Origin: an uncultured beta proteobacterium
Lineage (GTDB): Bacteria; Pseudomonadota; Gammaproteobacteria; Burkholderiales; Burkholderiaceae_E
Assembly (NCBI GenBank): GCA_903934295.1
Contig: CAIZNI010000023.1
Location: 1 to 64,000, forward strand
Reading direction: 5' to 3'
DNA: 64,000 bases
How positions within the stretch are numbered: the first letter of the stretch is position 1; each line of letters starts with the position of its first letter. Both the position numbers and the translations under genes were made by a program. Shown here piece by piece: positions 8,794 to 29,230 of this stretch. The notes under the pieces were generated by a model. That model saw nothing but the letters and a program-made list of their open reading frames with translations, made no database searches and was not told where the DNA came from.

Positions 8794-8933
8794 CGGCACG
8801 ACTCGCTGGGGTTGGCTGCAGGGACGCGTCCATTGCAACCCGCCAGCCGCGCCGCGCCATTGAGCCGGCGCTAACGCAGGCGCAATCGCCGGGTGCCCGG
8901 CGCTGTGTCGCGCTGAACGTCCAGCCCGGCGCG

Positions 8934-9035
8934 CCCTGCCCTGCCCTGCCCTGCCCTGCCCTGCCCTGCCCTGCCCTGCCCTGCCCTGCCCTGCCCTGCC
9001 CTGCCCTGCCCCGCCCTGCCCCGCCCTGCCCCGCC
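8934..9035. repeat. Pentanucleotide tandem array (CTGCC)n, about 20 units
   Basis: Fifteen perfect ctgcc units (8936-9010), then alternating ccgcc/ctgcc units to 9035. Confidence 0.97.
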
Positions 9036-17448: not shown

Positions 17449-17462
17449 TTGATCCGGATCAC
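17449..17462. promoter_or_regulatory. FNR/ANR-type box (ttgatccggatcac)
   Basis: One mismatch from TTGAT-N4-ATCAA; lies in the divergent glgP/glgC intergenic region, about 96 bp upstream of the glgP start. Confidence 0.55.
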
Positions 17463-17600: not shown

Positions 17601-18869
17601 ATGACACCGAACGAACTCGCCATCAGTCTGGACCTTCCCAAGCGCGCGGTCGCGCTGGTGCTGGCCGGCGGACGCGGCAGCCGGCTGATGAACCTGACCG
17701 ACCGGCGCGCCAAGCCGGCAGTGTATTTCGGCGGCAAGTTCCGCATCATCGACTTTGCCCTCTCGAACTGCCTGAACTCGGGCATCCGCCGGATCGGCGT
17801 GCTCACCCAGTACAAGAGCCACAGCCTGATGCGCCATCTGCAGCGCGGCTGGGCATTCCTCAAGAGCGAGATGAACGAGTTCGTCGACCTGATGCCGGCC
17901 CAGCAGCGCATCGACGAGGAAAGCTGGTATCGCGGCACCGCCGACGCGGTGTACCAGAACCACGACATCCTCTCCAGCTACCGGGCCGAGTACATCCTCA
18001 TCCTGGCCGGTGACCACATCTACAAGATGAACTACGCACTGATGCTGGCCGACCATGTCGCCAAGGGTCGCGAATGCACCGTGGCCTGCATCGAGGTCCC
18101 GCGCAGCGAGGCCTCCGGCTTCGGCGTGATGGCGGTCGACGAGAACAGCCTGATCACCGACTTCATCGAGAAACCGGCCGATCCGCCGGCCATGCCGGGC
18201 AAGCCCGATCGCGCGCTCGCCAGCATGGGCGTCTACATCTTCAACGCCCGCTACCTGTTTCGCGAACTCGCGCGCGACGTCGACGATCCCGACTCGAGCC
18301 ACGACTTCGGCAAGGACATCATCCCCAATGCAGTGCGCCACGGCCAGGCGGCCGCGCACCGGTTCGACCTGAGCGCGGTCGGCACCCGCGACGGCGAAGA
18401 ACCCTACTGGCGCGACGTCGGCACGATCGACGCGTACTGGGACGCCAACATCGACCTCACCGCCACCGATCCGCTGCTCAACATGTACGACAACCGCTGG
18501 CCGATCTGGACCTACCAGCCGCAGTTGCCGCCGGCCAAGTTCGTGCACAACCAGGACGGACGGCGCGGCATGGCGATCGAGACGCTGGTCTCGGGCGGGT
18601 GCATCGTGTCGGGTCATGTCGAGCGCTCGGTGCTGTTCTCGAGCGTGCGGGTGCGCTCCTACGCCAGCGTGAACTGGAGCGTGCTGCTGCCCGATGTGCA
18701 GGTCGGCCGCGGCGCGCGCCTGAGCCGGGTGGTGGTGGATCGGGGCTGCCGGATTCCCGACGGGATGATCATCGGCGAGAGCACCGAGGACGACGAGCGC
18801 CGCTTTTACCGCACCGCCCGGGGCATCACGCTGGTCACCCGCGAGATGCTGGCCCGCCTCCCCACCTGA
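17601..18869 (+). CDS. glgC: Glucose-1-phosphate adenylyltransferase (copy 1)
   Basis: [63 protein letters not shown]... Confidence 0.95.
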
Positions 18870-20386: not shown

Positions 20387-21730
20387 TCAGCCCATCCGCT
20401 TGTCGAGGTGCCAGCCCTGACCGATCATGTCCGGGGTGATCAGCGTGACCCCGGACTCACTGACGTGAAACCGCTTCTCGTCGGCGGCCCGGTCGACGCC
20501 GGCCTGGAATCCGTCGGGCAGCACGCAGTGCTTGTCGACGATCGCGCGGCGCAGGACCACCTGGCGCCCGATCCGCACATTGGGCAGCACCACCGAGTCC
20601 TCGATCTCGCTGCCCTCGCCCACCCGCACCTTCGAGAACAGGATCGAGCGGCGTACCTTCGCGCCGCTGACGATGCACCCGCTGGACACTAGCGAGTCGA
20701 TTGCCGACCCGCGGCGCGACTCCTCGTCGAACACGAACTTGGCCGGCGGCAGCTGACGCTGCAGGCTCAGGATCGGCCACTGGTCGTCGTACAGGTTCAA
20801 CTCGGGCACCACCCGGGTGAGATCGATGTTGGCCGCCCAGTAGCCGTCGATGGTGCCGACATCGCGCCAGTAGGGACGGTCGCCCACCATGTTCACGCAG
20901 CTGCGCGCGAAGCGGTGCGCGCACACCCGATGGCGGCGCACCAGATATGGCAGGAGATCGCGGCCGAAATCGTGGGTCGACGACGGATCGGCGGCGTCGC
21001 GGGCCAGCTGCTCGTAGAGGAAGGCGGCGTTGAACACATAGATGCCCATGCTGGCCAGCGCCTGGCCGGCATCGCCGGGGATCGGCGACGGGTTCGCCGG
21101 CTTTTCCTCGAACGCGGTCACCTGCCCGCCGGCATCGACATGCATCACGCCGTAGCCGACCGCATCGGCCAGCGGCACCTCGATGCTGGCCACGGTGACA
21201 TCGGCGCGCCGCTCGACGTGCTCGGCCACCAGGGTGTAGTAGTCCATCTTGTAGACGTGATCGCCGGCCAGGATCAGCACGTACTGGGGGTTGGCCTCGC
21301 GCAGGATGTCCAGGTTCTGGAAGACCGCATTGGCGGTGCCGCTGTACCACTGGTCGTCGACCCGCTGCTGGGCCGGCACCACATCGATGAACTCGCCCAG
21401 GTTCGCCTCGAAGAAGCCCCAGCCGCGCTCGACATGGCGGATCAGGCTCTGGGCCTTGTACTGGGTGAGGACACCGATGCGCCGGATGCCCGAATTCACG
21501 CAGTTGGACAGGGGAAAGTCGATGATCTTGAACTTGCCGGCAAACGGCACCGCGGGCTTGGCGCGCCAGTCGGTGAGCTGATGCAGGCGCGAGCCGCGCC
21601 CGCCGGCCAGGACCAGCGCATAGGTGTGCTGCATCAGATGGTTCATGGCGGTGGCCGGGTTCATGCCCTCGCGGGCCCGATATTCGATCTGGACTTCCTG
21701 GGACGGCAGCTCGTTCATGGCGCTGGTCAT
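20387..21730 (-). CDS. glgC: Glucose-1-phosphate adenylyltransferase (copy 2)
   Basis: MTSAMNELPSQEVQIEYR...[70 protein letters not shown]; clearly paralogous to 17601..18869 but divergent. Confidence 0.95.
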   Translation of the reverse strand: MTSAMNELPSQEVQIEYRAREGMNPATAMNHLMQHTYALVLAGGRGSRLHQLTDWRAKPAVPFAGKFKIIDFPLSNCVNSGIRRIGVLTQYKAQSLIRHVERGWGFFEANLGEFIDVVPAQQRVDDQWYSGTANAVFQNLDILREANPQYVLILAGDHVYKMDYYTLVAEHVERRADVTVASIEVPLADAVGYGVMHVDAGGQVTAFEEKPANPSPIPGDAGQALASMGIYVFNAAFLYEQLARDAADPSSTHDFGRDLLPYLVRRHRVCAHRFARSCVNMVGDRPYWRDVGTIDGYWAANIDLTRVVPELNLYDDQWPILSLQRQLPPAKFVFDEESRRGSAIDSLVSSGCIVSGAKVRRSILFSKVRVGEGSEIEDSVVLPNVRIGRQVVLRRAIVDKHCVLPDGFQAGVDRAADEKRFHVSESGVTLITPDMIGQGWHLDKRMG

Positions 21731-21735
21731 GACGG

Positions 21736-21912
21736 TCAGATCCGCCCACCGGCCAGCGCGGCGCGCAGGTCCGACGATCCGCTCATCAGCGGCGTCCAGC
21801 GCGGCGCCAACCGGCCGACCATCTCGCCCAACGACGCCGTCTTGCCGCCCACCACGGCGACATCGCTCATCGAGAGGTCGGCGAACCAGCGGATGTAACG
21901 GGGATCGGTCAC
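21736..21912 (-). pseudogene. ppsA: Truncated phosphoenolpyruvate synthase N-terminus / leader ORF in front of glgC copy 2
   Basis: GTG-start ORF (V)TDPRYIRWFADLSMSDVAVVGGKTASLGEMVGRLAP... matches the PpsA N-terminus (YIRWF..L.M.DVA.VGGKNASLGEM), then ends after 58 codons. An AGGAGG precedes the GTG by 8 nt. Confidence 0.75.
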
Positions 21913-21984
21913 AAAACATGCCTCCTGCCGCGGCAGGCGGCTGTGCACAGACATCGATGCTGCGGCCGGCCTGCCGGCCGGCGC

Positions 21985-21998
21985 TTGATCTGAGTCAA
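21985..21998. promoter_or_regulatory. FNR/ANR-type box (ttgatctgagtcaa)
   Basis: TTGAT-CTGA-GTCAA, one mismatch from TTGAT-N4-ATCAA, centred about 80 bp upstream of the GTG of the ppsA-like leader preceding glgC copy 2. Confidence 0.6.
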
Positions 21999-22164
21999 GC
22001 CAGCCGCAGGGGGCTCGCGCGAGGGTCGGAAAAGGCGGGCCTTTGCTGCCCTGCCCACCGGTTGCCGGAACCGGGAATGCGGTCCAATCGGACTACCTCC
22101 CCGTTGGCCATCCGCGGCCGAACAGTCGGCCGCTGCACAGCCCGCATCACCACCGGAAACCGCC

Positions 22165-24099
22165 ATGTCACTGCTGCATCGAATCAGCCTGCCAGGAAAA
22201 TTCCTCCTCCTGGGCGTCATCGCCGTCGTGATGACGGCGGTGCCGACCGCGATGCACCTGACACGATCGATGGAAGAGATGGCGGTCGCCCGTCTGGAAG
22301 ACGCCGGGATCGGCCCGGCTGTCCACCTGCAGCGAATCATCCGGCTCACGCTGGAGCACCGCCGAGCCGCCAACCGGGTGCTGACCGGCGCGAACAGCGA
22401 GACCGGCGCCCTGACCCGAGCCGCCACCGACCTGGGCGGCGCGTTCACCGCCTTCGAAGCCGACCTGCAAAGCCATCCGGCCTGGGCGGCGCTGCGGAAA
22501 GACTGGCCCGCGCACCGCCAGCGTTGGAGCGCCCTGTCGGGATCGCTGACCGACGGCAAGCTCGACGCCGCCAGCAGCTTCAGCCTGCACAGCGAGAGTC
22601 TGAGTTCACTGGCCGCGCTCAACGAGCGGCTGCTCGACGATTCGGGGATCATGCTCGACCCCCAGGCCGACTCCTACTACCTGGCGATGGCCACGTTGCT
22701 GGAGGCGCCCAAGCTGGCCGAGAAGCTGGGACGCCTGCGCGCCCAGGGCAACCAGATCCTGTCCGGGGGCGTCGCCGATGCGGACGCGCTGGCCGAGCTG
22801 AAGCACGCGCAGCAGCGCGCCGCCGAAAGTCGGGACGACTTCAGTCGCACGCTGGCCAAATCGGGACGTGCGAATCCGGCGCTGAAAGCCACCCTCGATC
22901 CGGCGCTGAGCGTTCTCACCGCCCGGGTCAGCGACGCCCTCAAGACCACCGTCGAAGCAACCGCCGGCAAGCCCGATCCGGGGCGGGCCACCGCCTTCGA
23001 TCAGTCGATGACCCAGGCGATCGACGCGGTGTTCGTGTTCAACCAGACCGCCCTTCCCGAACTGGGCGGGCTGCTGCACGAGCGGGTCCAGGGGCTGACG
23101 GCCGGCATCGCGCTGATCGGTGGTGCGCTGGCAGCGATGCTGGCCGCCGGCATCGCGGTGGGCTGGCTGTTCGCCCGCAGCATCACCGCCCCGCTGGCCG
23201 AGGCGCTGACGGTGGCCCGGGCAGTCGCCGCCGGCAATCTGGAGGTGCCGGTGCCGGTACGCGGCAGCAACGAGATCGGTCAGCTGATGAGCGCGCTGTC
23301 GGGGATGCGCCAGCATCTGGCCGAGGTGGTCGGCTCGGTGCGCCGCAACGCCGAGAGCGTGGCGCTGGCCAGTGCCGAGATCGCCGCGGGCAACGCCGAC
23401 CTCAGTTCACGCACCGAGGCGCAAGCCGCCGCGCTGGAGGAAACCGCCGCCTCGATGGAGGAGCTCGGCCAGACCGTGCGCAGCACCGCCGACAATGCCG
23501 GACAGGCGAGCCGGCTGGCGGACGGCGCCTCGGGCATCGCCGCCCGCGGAGGCGAAGTGGTGGGCCAGGTGGTCGACACCATGCGCGGCATCGAGGAGAG
23601 CTCGCGACGCATCGCCGAGATCATCGGGGTGATCGACTCGATCGCCTTCCAGACCAACATCCTGGCGCTCAATGCGGCGGTCGAAGCCGCCCGCGCCGGT
23701 GAACAGGGTCGCGGCTTTGCGGTGGTCGCCGCCGAGGTGCGCAGCCTGGCGCACCGCAGCGCCGACGCCGCGCGCGAGATCAAGGAACTCATCTCGGCCA
23801 GCGCCGAACGGGTCAGCCGCGGCACCGCGCTGGTCGACCAGGCCGGCGACACGATGGGCGAGGTGGTCGGCGCGATCCGACGGGTCACCGAGATCGTGGG
23901 CGAGATCAGCACCGCCACCGCCGAGCAGAGCAGCGGTGTGTCCCAGGTAGGCGACGCGGTTCGCCAGATGGACCAGAGCACCCAGCAGAACGCGGCGCTG
24001 GTCGAGCAGAGCGCCGCTGCCGCCGAAAGCCTGCGGGCGCAGTCGCGCCAGCTGGTCGACGCGGTGGCGATCTTCCGGATCCGCGGCTCGGAGCGCTGA
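22165..24099 (+). CDS. Methyl-accepting chemotaxis protein
   Basis: Two TM segments, HAMP-like linker and signalling hairpin RRIAEIIGVIDSIAFQTNILALNAAVEAARAGEQGRGFAVVAAEVRSLAHRSADAAREIK. Confidence 0.95.
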   Translation: MSLLHRISLPGKFLLLGVIAVVMTAVPTAMHLTRSMEEMAVARLEDAGIGPAVHLQRIIRLTLEHRRAANRVLTGANSETGALTRAATDLGGAFTAFEADLQSHPAWAALRKDWPAHRQRWSALSGSLTDGKLDAASSFSLHSESLSSLAALNERLLDDSGIMLDPQADSYYLAMATLLEAPKLAEKLGRLRAQGNQILSGGVADADALAELKHAQQRAAESRDDFSRTLAKSGRANPALKATLDPALSVLTARVSDALKTTVEATAGKPDPGRATAFDQSMTQAIDAVFVFNQTALPELGGLLHERVQGLTAGIALIGGALAAMLAAGIAVGWLFARSITAPLAEALTVARAVAAGNLEVPVPVRGSNEIGQLMSALSGMRQHLAEVVGSVRRNAESVALASAEIAAGNADLSSRTEAQAAALEETAASMEELGQTVRSTADNAGQASRLADGASGIAARGGEVVGQVVDTMRGIEESSRRIAEIIGVIDSIAFQTNILALNAAVEAARAGEQGRGFAVVAAEVRSLAHRSADAAREIKELISASAERVSRGTALVDQAGDTMGEVVGAIRRVTEIVGEISTATAEQSSGVSQVGDAVRQMDQSTQQNAALVEQSAAAAESLRAQSRQLVDAVAIFRIRGSER

Positions 24100-24184: not shown

Positions 24185-25090
24185 TCAGCCGCGCTGCAGG
24201 AAGTCCTCGATCACCCGGGCCAGCTGCTCGGGCTGGTCGTGATGGACATTGTGGCCGGCGTCCTCGATGTGCTCGATGCGCAGGTCCTGGTAGGCGCCCA
24301 TCCGTTCATCGAACTCCGGGGGCCGCGCCATCAGGCGGGCCCACAGACCCGACTGCGCGCCGTCGACCCACAGCACCGACGCGCTCGTCTGGCGCCAGAT
24401 CTCCAGGATTTCCGCCGGCGCAAACGGCAGCGGATTCACCCGCTTGTGCGCCGGATCGGCTCGCCGCACCACCGTGCCGTCGGCCTCCTGGCGGCCCCAG
24501 TGCTCGACCAGGAAACGGGCACGCGCATCGGTCAGGCGCGGGTTCTCCGACTGCATGCGCAGCGCGAACTCCTCGAAGCTCTCGTAGGGCCGCTGCGCGG
24601 TGTCGTCGTGCAGCTGGGACAGCCACTTGGCGACCCGGCGCGGTGCCGGATCCTGGCGCTGGGTCGGCGGCCCGAAACCGTCGACATTGATGAAGCGGGC
24701 GACCCGCTGCGGGCACACGCCCGAGTACAGCGCGGCGATGCTCGCCCCCATGCTGTGACCGACCAGGCGAACCGGCTCTTCCGGGGCATAGTGGTCGAGC
24801 AGCGCGTCGAGGTCGCCCAGATAATCGGGGAACCAGTAGCTGTCGACGCCGCTCCAGCCCGACAGGCCATTGCCGCGCCAGTCGGGTGCGATGACCTGCC
24901 AGTCGCTGGCCAGCGCGTCGACGGTGAACTGCCAGGAGGCCGAGACATCCTGCGAGCCATGCAGCAGGAACAGGCGCGGCGCGCCGGCCGGGCCCCAGCG
25001 CCGGCAGTGGTAATCGATGCCCCGGATCTTGACGAAGTCGGATTGGCTTGTTTTCACGGTTAAAACTTTCACCGGCCACGGGCCGTGCAC
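24185..25090 (-). CDS. Alpha/beta hydrolase
   Basis: RLFLLHGSQDVSASW...VIAPDWRGNGLS...VRLVGHSMGASIAALYSG...DAGHNVHHDQPEQLARVIEDFL. Confidence 0.88.
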   Translation of the reverse strand: MHGPWPVKVLTVKTSQSDFVKIRGIDYHCRRWGPAGAPRLFLLHGSQDVSASWQFTVDALASDWQVIAPDWRGNGLSGWSGVDSYWFPDYLGDLDALLDHYAPEEPVRLVGHSMGASIAALYSGVCPQRVARFINVDGFGPPTQRQDPAPRRVAKWLSQLHDDTAQRPYESFEEFALRMQSENPRLTDARARFLVEHWGRQEADGTVVRRADPAHKRVNPLPFAPAEILEIWRQTSASVLWVDGAQSGLWARLMARPPEFDERMGAYQDLRIEHIEDAGHNVHHDQPEQLARVIEDFLQRG

Positions 25091-26941: not shown

Positions 26942-29230
26942 TCAGACCGTCAGGCGGATCGGCGCCAGCGCGTCGCCCTGGGGCTCGATGCGCCCGATCG
27001 CCACGGTGGCCGGATAACCCAGCGCCCGCAGCGCCGCGATGCAGGCATCCGCCCGCGCCGCCGGCACGCTGGCCAGCAGCCCGCCCGCCGTCTGCGGATC
27101 GAACAGCAGCCGGTAGCGCGGATGCGTCAGCGCCGCTTCGGGGTTGCGCAGCGCCCGGCGCAGGCGGACGTTGGCCGGCTGCAGCGAGCTCAGGATGCCG
27201 GCCGCGCTGGTCTGCTCGGCACCGGCCAGCACCGGCAGCGCCGCCAGATCCAGGCAGGCGTCCACACCCGAAGGCCGGGTCATCTCCACCAGGTGGCCGA
27301 GCAGGCCGAAGCCGGTCAGGTCGGTGCAGGCGGTGGCGCCGTGCTCGCGCAGGCACTGCGCACCCAGCCGGTTCGACTGACACATCGACACCAGCGCGGC
27401 GTCGATCCAGTCGCCGCGCGCCTGCAGCAGCGCGTGCGCGGCGAACAGCGTGCCGGTGCCGATCGGCTTGGTGAGCAGCAGCACATCGCCCGGCTGCATG
27501 CCGCCCTTGCGCATCACGCCCGACAGGTCCTCATCCACCAGGCCGTTGATCGCGAAGCCCAGCGCCAGTTCACGGCCCTCGCCGGTGTGCCCGCCCACCA
27601 GCGCGCAGCCCGCCTCGTTGAGCACCTCGACCGCACCGGTCATCATCTGGAACAGCAGGTCCTCGACCTTGGATTCGAGCCCGGGCGGCACGGTGACCAC
27701 CGCGGTGGCCGACTGGGCCTGCCCGCCCATCGCAAAGATGTCGCCCAGCGCATGGTTGGCGGCGATCTTGCCGAACACATACGGGTCGTCGATGAAGGCC
27801 CGGAAGAAATCCACGGTGTGCACCATCGCCTTGCCCGGGGGCACCCGCACCACCGCCGCGTCATCGGGCGAATGCAGCCCGATCAGCACGTCGTCGCGCT
27901 CGATCGGCGTGAGCGCACCGAGCGCGCGCGACAGCACGGTGGCACCGACCTTCGCGCCGCAGCCACCGCAGCGCATCGCCACCGCCGAGAGCGCCTGCGC
28001 CGCCTCCTCGGCATCGAGCCGCACCCCGGCGGGCGCGCGCGCCATCGCCGCCGGCGGCGCCATTGCGGGCAAGTCGCTGAAGCGGGTCATGAAGCGGCGG
28101 TCGATCCAGTCCTTCCAGCGCCAGACCCAGGCGCCGCGAAAGCCGATCGCGCCGCGCGAGGCCACCGCGTAGCGGTCCCCGGTGCTGATCAGCGCCAGCC
28201 AGCGGCGCTGCGGGCGGTAGCGCACCAGCGGCTCGCCCAGCACCGACAGACGCAGGTTGCGCGCCAGCGGACGGCCCTGGCGGACCGCGAACACGCCCGC
28301 CTTTTCCAGCGGATGACCGGCGATCGCGGCGATGTCGCCGGCCGCGAACACCGCCGGATCGGTGACCGACTGCAGCGTCTCGTTCACCTGCACACAGCCG
28401 TCGGCATCCAGCGCCAGCCCGGTGTCGCGCAGCCAGGCCGCCCCGCCGGCGCGGGTGACCCACACGATCTCGTCGGCCATCACCGACTGGCCGGCGGCGG
28501 TGTGCAGAACGCCCGGCGCCACCGAGACCACCTCGGCGTCAGGCAGCAGGTTGACCCCGCGCGCGCGCAGCACCCGCTCGAAGGCCGCGCGCACGCCCCG
28601 GTTGTGGGTGGGCAGCAAACCGTGACGACCGGTGAGCAGATCGAAGCGCAGCTCATCCGGATTGCGCCCGAGCGCGCGCCGTTCGGCACGCAGCCGGAAC
28701 TGCATCGCCAGGGTGAGCTCGACCCCGCCTGCGCCGGCGCCGACCACCGCGATGCGGATCGGGCCCGGCTGTTCGCGGACCCGCGCGAGCAGCGCCTGCC
28801 AGCGTTCGTCGAAGCGGTGGATCGGCTTGACCGGGATCGCGTGCTCGGCGGCGCCCGGCACCTGGTCGACCCGCGGCGTCGACCCGATGTTGATCGAGAG
28901 CCGGTCATAGGGCACCGCGGGGCGATGGCGCAGCAGCACGCGTGAACCCGCCCGGTCCAGCCCGACCACCTCGTCGCGATAGAAGCGCGCGCCGGCGAAG
29001 CGGGCCAGCCGCGCCAGGTCGATGTGGACCTCGTCGTGGGTGTAGTGCCCCGCGATGTAGCCGGGCAGCATCCCGGAATACGGCGTGTGGGTGTCGCGAC
29101 AGATCACGGTGAGGCGCACCCCCGGCATCGGGCGCATGCCGAAGCTGCGCAGCACGCCCACATGGCTGTGCCCGCCGCCGACCAGTACGATGTCCCGAAG
29201 GACGGGTTGATCCGATTCCTGCATGCCCAA
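26942..29230 (-). CDS. selD: Fusion of NDH-2-like pyridine nucleotide-disulfide oxidoreductase and selenide, water dikinase (SelD)
   Basis: N-terminal DIVLVGGGHSHVGVLRSFGM...VVGAGAGGVELTLAMQFRLR; C-terminal MRCGGCGAKVGATVLSRAL...HSPDDAAVVRVPPGKAMVHTVDFFRAFIDDPYVFGKIAANHALGDIFAMG...VGGHTGEGRELALGFAINGLV. Confidence 0.92.
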   Translation of the reverse strand: MGMQESDQPVLRDIVLVGGGHSHVGVLRSFGMRPMPGVRLTVICRDTHTPYSGMLPGYIAGHYTHDEVHIDLARLARFAGARFYRDEVVGLDRAGSRVLLRHRPAVPYDRLSINIGSTPRVDQVPGAAEHAIPVKPIHRFDERWQALLARVREQPGPIRIAVVGAGAGGVELTLAMQFRLRAERRALGRNPDELRFDLLTGRHGLLPTHNRGVRAAFERVLRARGVNLLPDAEVVSVAPGVLHTAAGQSVMADEIVWVTRAGGAAWLRDTGLALDADGCVQVNETLQSVTDPAVFAAGDIAAIAGHPLEKAGVFAVRQGRPLARNLRLSVLGEPLVRYRPQRRWLALISTGDRYAVASRGAIGFRGAWVWRWKDWIDRRFMTRFSDLPAMAPPAAMARAPAGVRLDAEEAAQALSAVAMRCGGCGAKVGATVLSRALGALTPIERDDVLIGLHSPDDAAVVRVPPGKAMVHTVDFFRAFIDDPYVFGKIAANHALGDIFAMGGQAQSATAVVTVPPGLESKVEDLLFQMMTGAVEVLNEAGCALVGGHTGEGRELALGFAINGLVDEDLSGVMRKGGMQPGDVLLLTKPIGTGTLFAAHALLQARGDWIDAALVSMCQSNRLGAQCLREHGATACTDLTGFGLLGHLVEMTRPSGVDACLDLAALPVLAGAEQTSAAGILSSLQPANVRLRRALRNPEAALTHPRYRLLFDPQTAGGLLASVPAARADACIAALRALGYPATVAIGRIEPQGDALAPIRLTV

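Follow-up and report, generated by a model that had tools for sequence, protein, structure and literature searches.

The DNA that we analysed, hereafter the window, is a stretch of 64,000 nucleotides from an uncultured beta proteobacterium. It contains a cluster of glycogen genes, in which two divergent glgC paralogues (17601-18869 and 20387-21730, 57% identical) flank glgA. The second copy, glgC2, encodes a glucose-1-phosphate adenylyltransferase and lies on the minus strand (20387..21730). It is preceded, in the same direction, by a leader ORF of 58 codons (21736..21912, minus strand). The leader starts with GTG at 21912 and stops with TGA at 21736-21738, which leaves a gap of 5 nt to the ATG of glgC2 at 21730. 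The Shine-Dalgarno (SD) sequence of the leader, AGGAGG, is found 8 nt before the GTG (21921..21926, minus strand). This anatomy, AGGAGG-8nt-GTG and a stop 5 nt before the glgC ATG, was given correctly in the initial annotation, coordinates included; the strand of the ORF is minus. Divergent from the leader is a gene for a methyl-accepting chemotaxis protein (MCP) with HAMP and MCPsignal domains (22165..24099, plus strand). Beyond the MCP gene follows an alpha/beta-hydrolase gene (24185..25090, minus strand).

The first part of the leader resembles PpsA, the PEP synthase (pyruvate, water dikinase; TIGR01418, NF005057). We therefore call the leader a ppsA stub. Residues 1-37 (21802..21912, minus strand) align in register with the N-terminus of PpsA. 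The stub matches the NCBIfam PEP synthase model NF005057 over positions 4-37 (E=3e-8, 32 bits, the family cut-off being 598), in agreement with the earlier reading of the first ~35 residues as PpsA-like. In a search of the genome TIGR01418 also matches the stub. PDB 2ols matches with E=2.4e-6, and an Azospirillum ppsA is 65% identical to stub residues 1-37 (E=1e-7). An HMM of 22 PpsA N-termini gives the stub an E-value of 5.3e-17, which is somewhat flattering because most of the 22 training sequences were picked via their matches to the stub; the next of the 938 stop-to-stop frames in the window reaches 0.38. The 58-mer alone has no match in Pfam. Judged by these scores, the similarity of the stub to PpsA is not due to chance.

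The similarity ends at residue 37-38, just short of the conserved xGVxVPxGFA segment. More than 95% of the PpsA protein is missing from the stub: most of the ATP-binding domain, the phosphohistidine domain and the PEP-binding domain. The score, too, is not that of a family member. By these measures the stub is a fragment of PpsA and not a PpsA itself.

The initial annotation proposed that a resident ppsA once stood upstream of glgC2, and that its body was deleted in place while the promoter and the 5' end were left behind. The stub indeed begins exactly as PpsA does and extends up to glgC2. Its tail, residues 38-58 and the stop (21736..21801, minus strand), matches nothing in the searches. When aligned to the phosphohistidine segment of PpsA, the tail gives at best a weak PxWxPxM..GGR pattern, such as an internal deletion of ppsA could leave. 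However, this match is not significant and we did not accept it: shuffling the tail gives an equally good score against the best PpsA in 67 of 500 cases, and by mean score in 8 of 500. A ppsA may have been deleted internally, but the alignment of the tail does not support this.

The coding phase runs through the whole stub. GC3 in the stub frame is 0.92 for codons 1-37 and 0.90 for codons 38-58, compared to 0.53-0.70 in the other two frames. Near 21745 the GC3 phase changes from the stub frame to the glgC2 frame. This pattern suggests that the stub frame is the one read in evolution. It argues against an overlapping frame of 510 codons (20387-21919), which would start at ATG 21919 with an SD only 1 nt away. 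Gene callers could take this ATG for the start of GlgC2 and so lengthen its N-terminus by 63 residues, an annotation that the coding phase speaks against as well.

A strong SD and start, together with coding-like GC3 through all 58 codons, could also mean that the leader encodes a functional small protein that is kept for its own sake. However, the full 58-mer has no homologue in any genome searched, the tail is without relatives, and the 37 PpsA-like residues make up only the first strands of an ATP-binding domain. We consider a functional small protein highly improbable. The structure of the leader RNA is unremarkable (z = -0.9).

Where could the ppsA fragment come from? One intact ppsA of 807 codons is kept elsewhere in the genome, on contig C19, so that the full-length gene that the initial annotation suggested looking for exists. 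The gene upstream of it presumably encodes a PEP synthase regulatory protein. The resident ppsA is ruled out as the source of the stub, because the two share only 41% amino acid identity over residues 5-43. With a DNA identity of 72% over 58 nt, the stub is not a recent copy of the resident gene either. The leader region has no second copy elsewhere in the genome.

The full stub is absent from the 73 other genomes of the family (74 were searched), from the sampled sets of the order and the phylum (399 genomes each, with some members in common) and from the named genome collection. In nearly all genomes of the family, the single good match to the stub is the genome's own ppsA. This pattern speaks against a deletion in place. 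Matches from the phylum, the order and plasmids are ordinary ppsA genes (50-67% over ~30-45 residues), and the best match of the donor search, in genome G460, reaches ~60% over residues 1-45. Neither a donor ppsA nor an intact MCP-ppsA pair was found among these matches. None of the ppsA genes from the donor search adjoins a glg gene of the window's cluster, except for a weak malQ-like match at locus L132. At locus L121 an MCP gene lies 2 kb upstream of ppsA. We did not take it as the donor pair, because the sensor part is 24% identical and both genes point in the same direction.

A comparison with close relatives reveals what is special about the locus. The closest orthologues of glgC2 (80% identity) are found in two genomes of the same genus, G006 and G002. 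Window and relatives share the gene order aminotransferase, DMT transporter, selD fusion, AMP ligase, alpha/beta-hydrolase, glgC2, glgA and glgC1, which glgP continues in G006. The two-glgC arrangement is likewise common to G006 and, as far as the contigs reach, to G002. The selD fusion is a frame (26942-29230) that, judged by eye, joins an FAD-dependent oxidoreductase and a selenophosphate synthetase-like domain (SelD); its synteny is kept in the relatives.

In G006 and G002 the hydrolase gene directly precedes glgC2: the hydrolase stop is followed by 101 nt and then by the TTG start of glgC2. This junction contains no MCP gene, no PpsA-like ORF or stub and no FNR-like box. In the window, homology to the relatives breaks just past the hydrolase stop (24185) and returns at YRAREG (~21680), six residues just inside GlgC2. 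In place of the relatives' junction stand ~2.5 kb with the MCP gene, the stub and, between the two, a divergent intergenic or promoter region that contains an FNR-like box. For the sensor half of the MCP, the other genomes of the genus give no match, and the family gives 36% at best. YRAREG is kept in the relatives although its codons differ. Hence, translation of glgC2 must start upstream of these residues, at ATG 21730 or at ATG 21718.

The relatives also bear on the deletion of a resident ppsA. At none of the glgC2 loci of relatives that we examined is ppsA adjacent to glgC, the neighbourhood that the initial annotation suggested looking for. At the junction, ppsA and MCP are both missing from the two syntenic relatives, and the window has an MCP gene and a stub in addition. 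Thus insertion or replacement would be the simplest history, not the deletion of a resident ppsA. On this comparison, a lineage-specific insertion that brought in a foreign ppsA 5' end fits better than a locally deleted resident gene, which we regard as improbable. The joints of the inserted stretch have no insertion scars and no convincing bounding repeats. Since donor ppsA and intact MCP-ppsA pair are missing from the matches too, an insertion in one step is a candidate only.

Alternatively, an artefact of assembly or binning could have joined a ppsA fragment to glgC2. The genome is a draft of 72 contigs, and the arrangement is unique to it. However, both flanks keep the syntenic order of the relatives, the composition is even across the stretch, and no repeat is found at the joints. 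We give an artefact hardly any credence. Instead, we take the ppsA 5' fragment in front of glgC2 to be genuine by all appearances of the sequence, and the stretch around it, with the FNR-type box, to be a lineage-specific replacement.

The box in the replaced stretch is the palindrome TTGACTCAGATCAA (21985..21998, minus strand), which was already noticed in the initial annotation. Its centre lies ~80 nt upstream of the stub GTG, and it differs from TTGATNNNNATCAA by one mismatch. A TTGAT-N4-ATCAA-like palindrome with one mismatch is thus present upstream of the start. A second FNR-like box, TTGATCCGGATCAC (17449..17462, plus strand), is found in the divergent glgP/glgC1 intergenic region, also with one mismatch. 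These are the 2 one-mismatch sites in the window, where 0.32 are expected, and both fall into intergenic regions of the glycogen cluster. Neither box is present in the syntenic relatives; for TTGATCCGGATCAC the glycogen-cluster loci of both G006 and G002 were compared.

The relaxed motif TTGAYNNNNRTCAA has 12 sites in the genome, compared to 2 for the reversed control pattern. One site lies 86 nt before a ccoN-like gene (named from its sequence) and another 141 nt before a rubrerythrin gene (Pfam). Both ccoN and rubrerythrin are typical FNR targets. The genome also encodes a protein of the Crp/Fnr family (L165) with the recognition helix ETASR (E-x-x-S-R) and an N-terminal CxxC. Because the same motif precedes the ccoN and rubrerythrin genes, FNR-type control of the putative stub-glgC2 promoter is plausible. 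In class II geometry, a box centred ~80 nt before the GTG would put the transcription start near 21950. FNR/ANR-type promoters are characterised by an upstream TTGAY-N4-RTCAA palindrome, as is seen here before ccoN and rubrerythrin; compared to these promoters, the FNR-like TTGACTCAGATCAA box is one mismatch away from the consensus.

The box could also serve the divergent MCP gene. A consensus scan of 21600-22300 found no sigma-70-like promoter. The initial annotation described the promoter as gluconeogenic, which we cannot uphold: the only recognisable element is of the FNR type, and at the PpsA loci examined the 400 bp before ppsA contain no FNR-like box, except for one at -394. In the literature we found nothing on point that links FNR with glgC or ppsA.

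How would glgC2 be translated behind the stub? The SD of the stub forms a duplex with the anti-SD at -10.3 kcal/mol, an energy that 0.2% of random 20-mers from the window reach. The SD of glgC2 is mediocre at -5.7 kcal/mol, which ~10-22% of random 20-mers reach (background mean -3.1, 5th percentile -6.8 kcal/mol). Gaps of a few nt between stop and start allow termination-reinitiation, and a gap of ~20 nt nearly abolishes it (PMC10666635). The stub stop is close to the downstream start. Given the strong leader SD, the mediocre glgC2 SD and the 5-nt gap, translational coupling of stub and glgC2 is plausible. Known leader ORFs with such coupling are short, run in the same direction and end a few nt ahead of the following start codon, and the stub-glgC2 pair shares with them a strong upstream and a weaker downstream SD (PMC10666635). 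However, in most known coupled pairs the ORFs overlap, by 4 or 1 nt, and their products interact (PMC10666635); the stub, in contrast, is a relic and is separated from glgC2 by a gap of +5 nt.

The reading that we favour, with moderate confidence, is that the replaced ~2.5 kb with the foreign ppsA 5' end and the FNR-type box drives coupled expression of glgC2. In one lineage, the region upstream of glgC2 would have been replaced by ~2.5 kb of DNA. This DNA would have brought in the MCP gene and a divergent promoter region with the FNR-type box, as well as the first 37 codons of a non-resident ppsA. The ppsA fragment would have kept its SD and start, continuing into 21 codons that are not PpsA and ending 5 nt before glgC2. 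At low oxygen, a regulator of the FNR family would activate transcription from ~40 nt upstream of the GTG. Ribosomes recruited by the strong SD of the leader would translate its 58 codons, terminate at the stop and then reinitiate at the ATG of glgC2. The leader peptide itself is probably inert. Within this account, homology, coding-phase switch, the difference from the relatives and the motif shared with the ccoN and rubrerythrin regions are read directly from the DNA; from them we infer transcription start, FNR control, coupling and order of events.

The stretch is probably a captured promoter and leader, seen in one genome only. In promoter capture by insertion or rearrangement, a gene exchanges its native upstream region for one with a different promoter-like element, with another gene's 5' end left behind as a relic. 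The syntenic orthologues of glgC2 indeed have a different upstream region. Of the initial annotation, the anatomy stands and the idea of promoter capture is probably right in essence; the deletion in place and the gluconeogenic promoter are not supported. Compared to known cases of promoter capture, the event here is marked by neither an IS element nor a repeat, the donor neighbourhood was not found among the matches, and the promoter is putative.

A less likely reading, though one to be taken seriously, is that the remnant is inert. The ppsA 5' end would be leftover insertion DNA, and translation of glgC2 would begin either from the weak SD of glgC2 itself or at a later ATG. The FNR-like box would act on the MCP gene alone, or on nothing. 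The stub is seen in a single genome, glgC2 has an SD of its own, and the neighbouring glgC1 and glgA supply the pathway. However, nothing between leader and glgC2 would halt transcription, and the leader has kept its frame, its SD and the 5-nt gap intact. Furthermore, the distance from box to leader GTG is normal for class II if transcription starts near 21950. An inert remnant would still be a warning for annotation, since it could give rise to a spurious N-terminal extension of GlgC2.

If leader and box do drive glgC2, the locus would clearly exemplify regulatory rewiring in nature. A gene for a storage polymer would have gained oxygen-type control and a coupled leader from the fragment of another gene, and the ancestral arrangement would be preserved in close relatives for comparison. 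A wider proposal is that glycogen synthesis came under FNR-type, low-oxygen control twice, through the glgC2 insertion and through the glgP/glgC1 box at 17449, in combination with the coupling to the ppsA leader. We regard this proposal as doubtful.

Elsewhere in the window, ~20 copies of the 5-bp unit GCCCT lie just past the stop of a malQ-like gene (8933-9035). The repeat precedes a glycosyltransferase-like gene that is encoded on the minus strand, and may be a site of slippage (phase variation).
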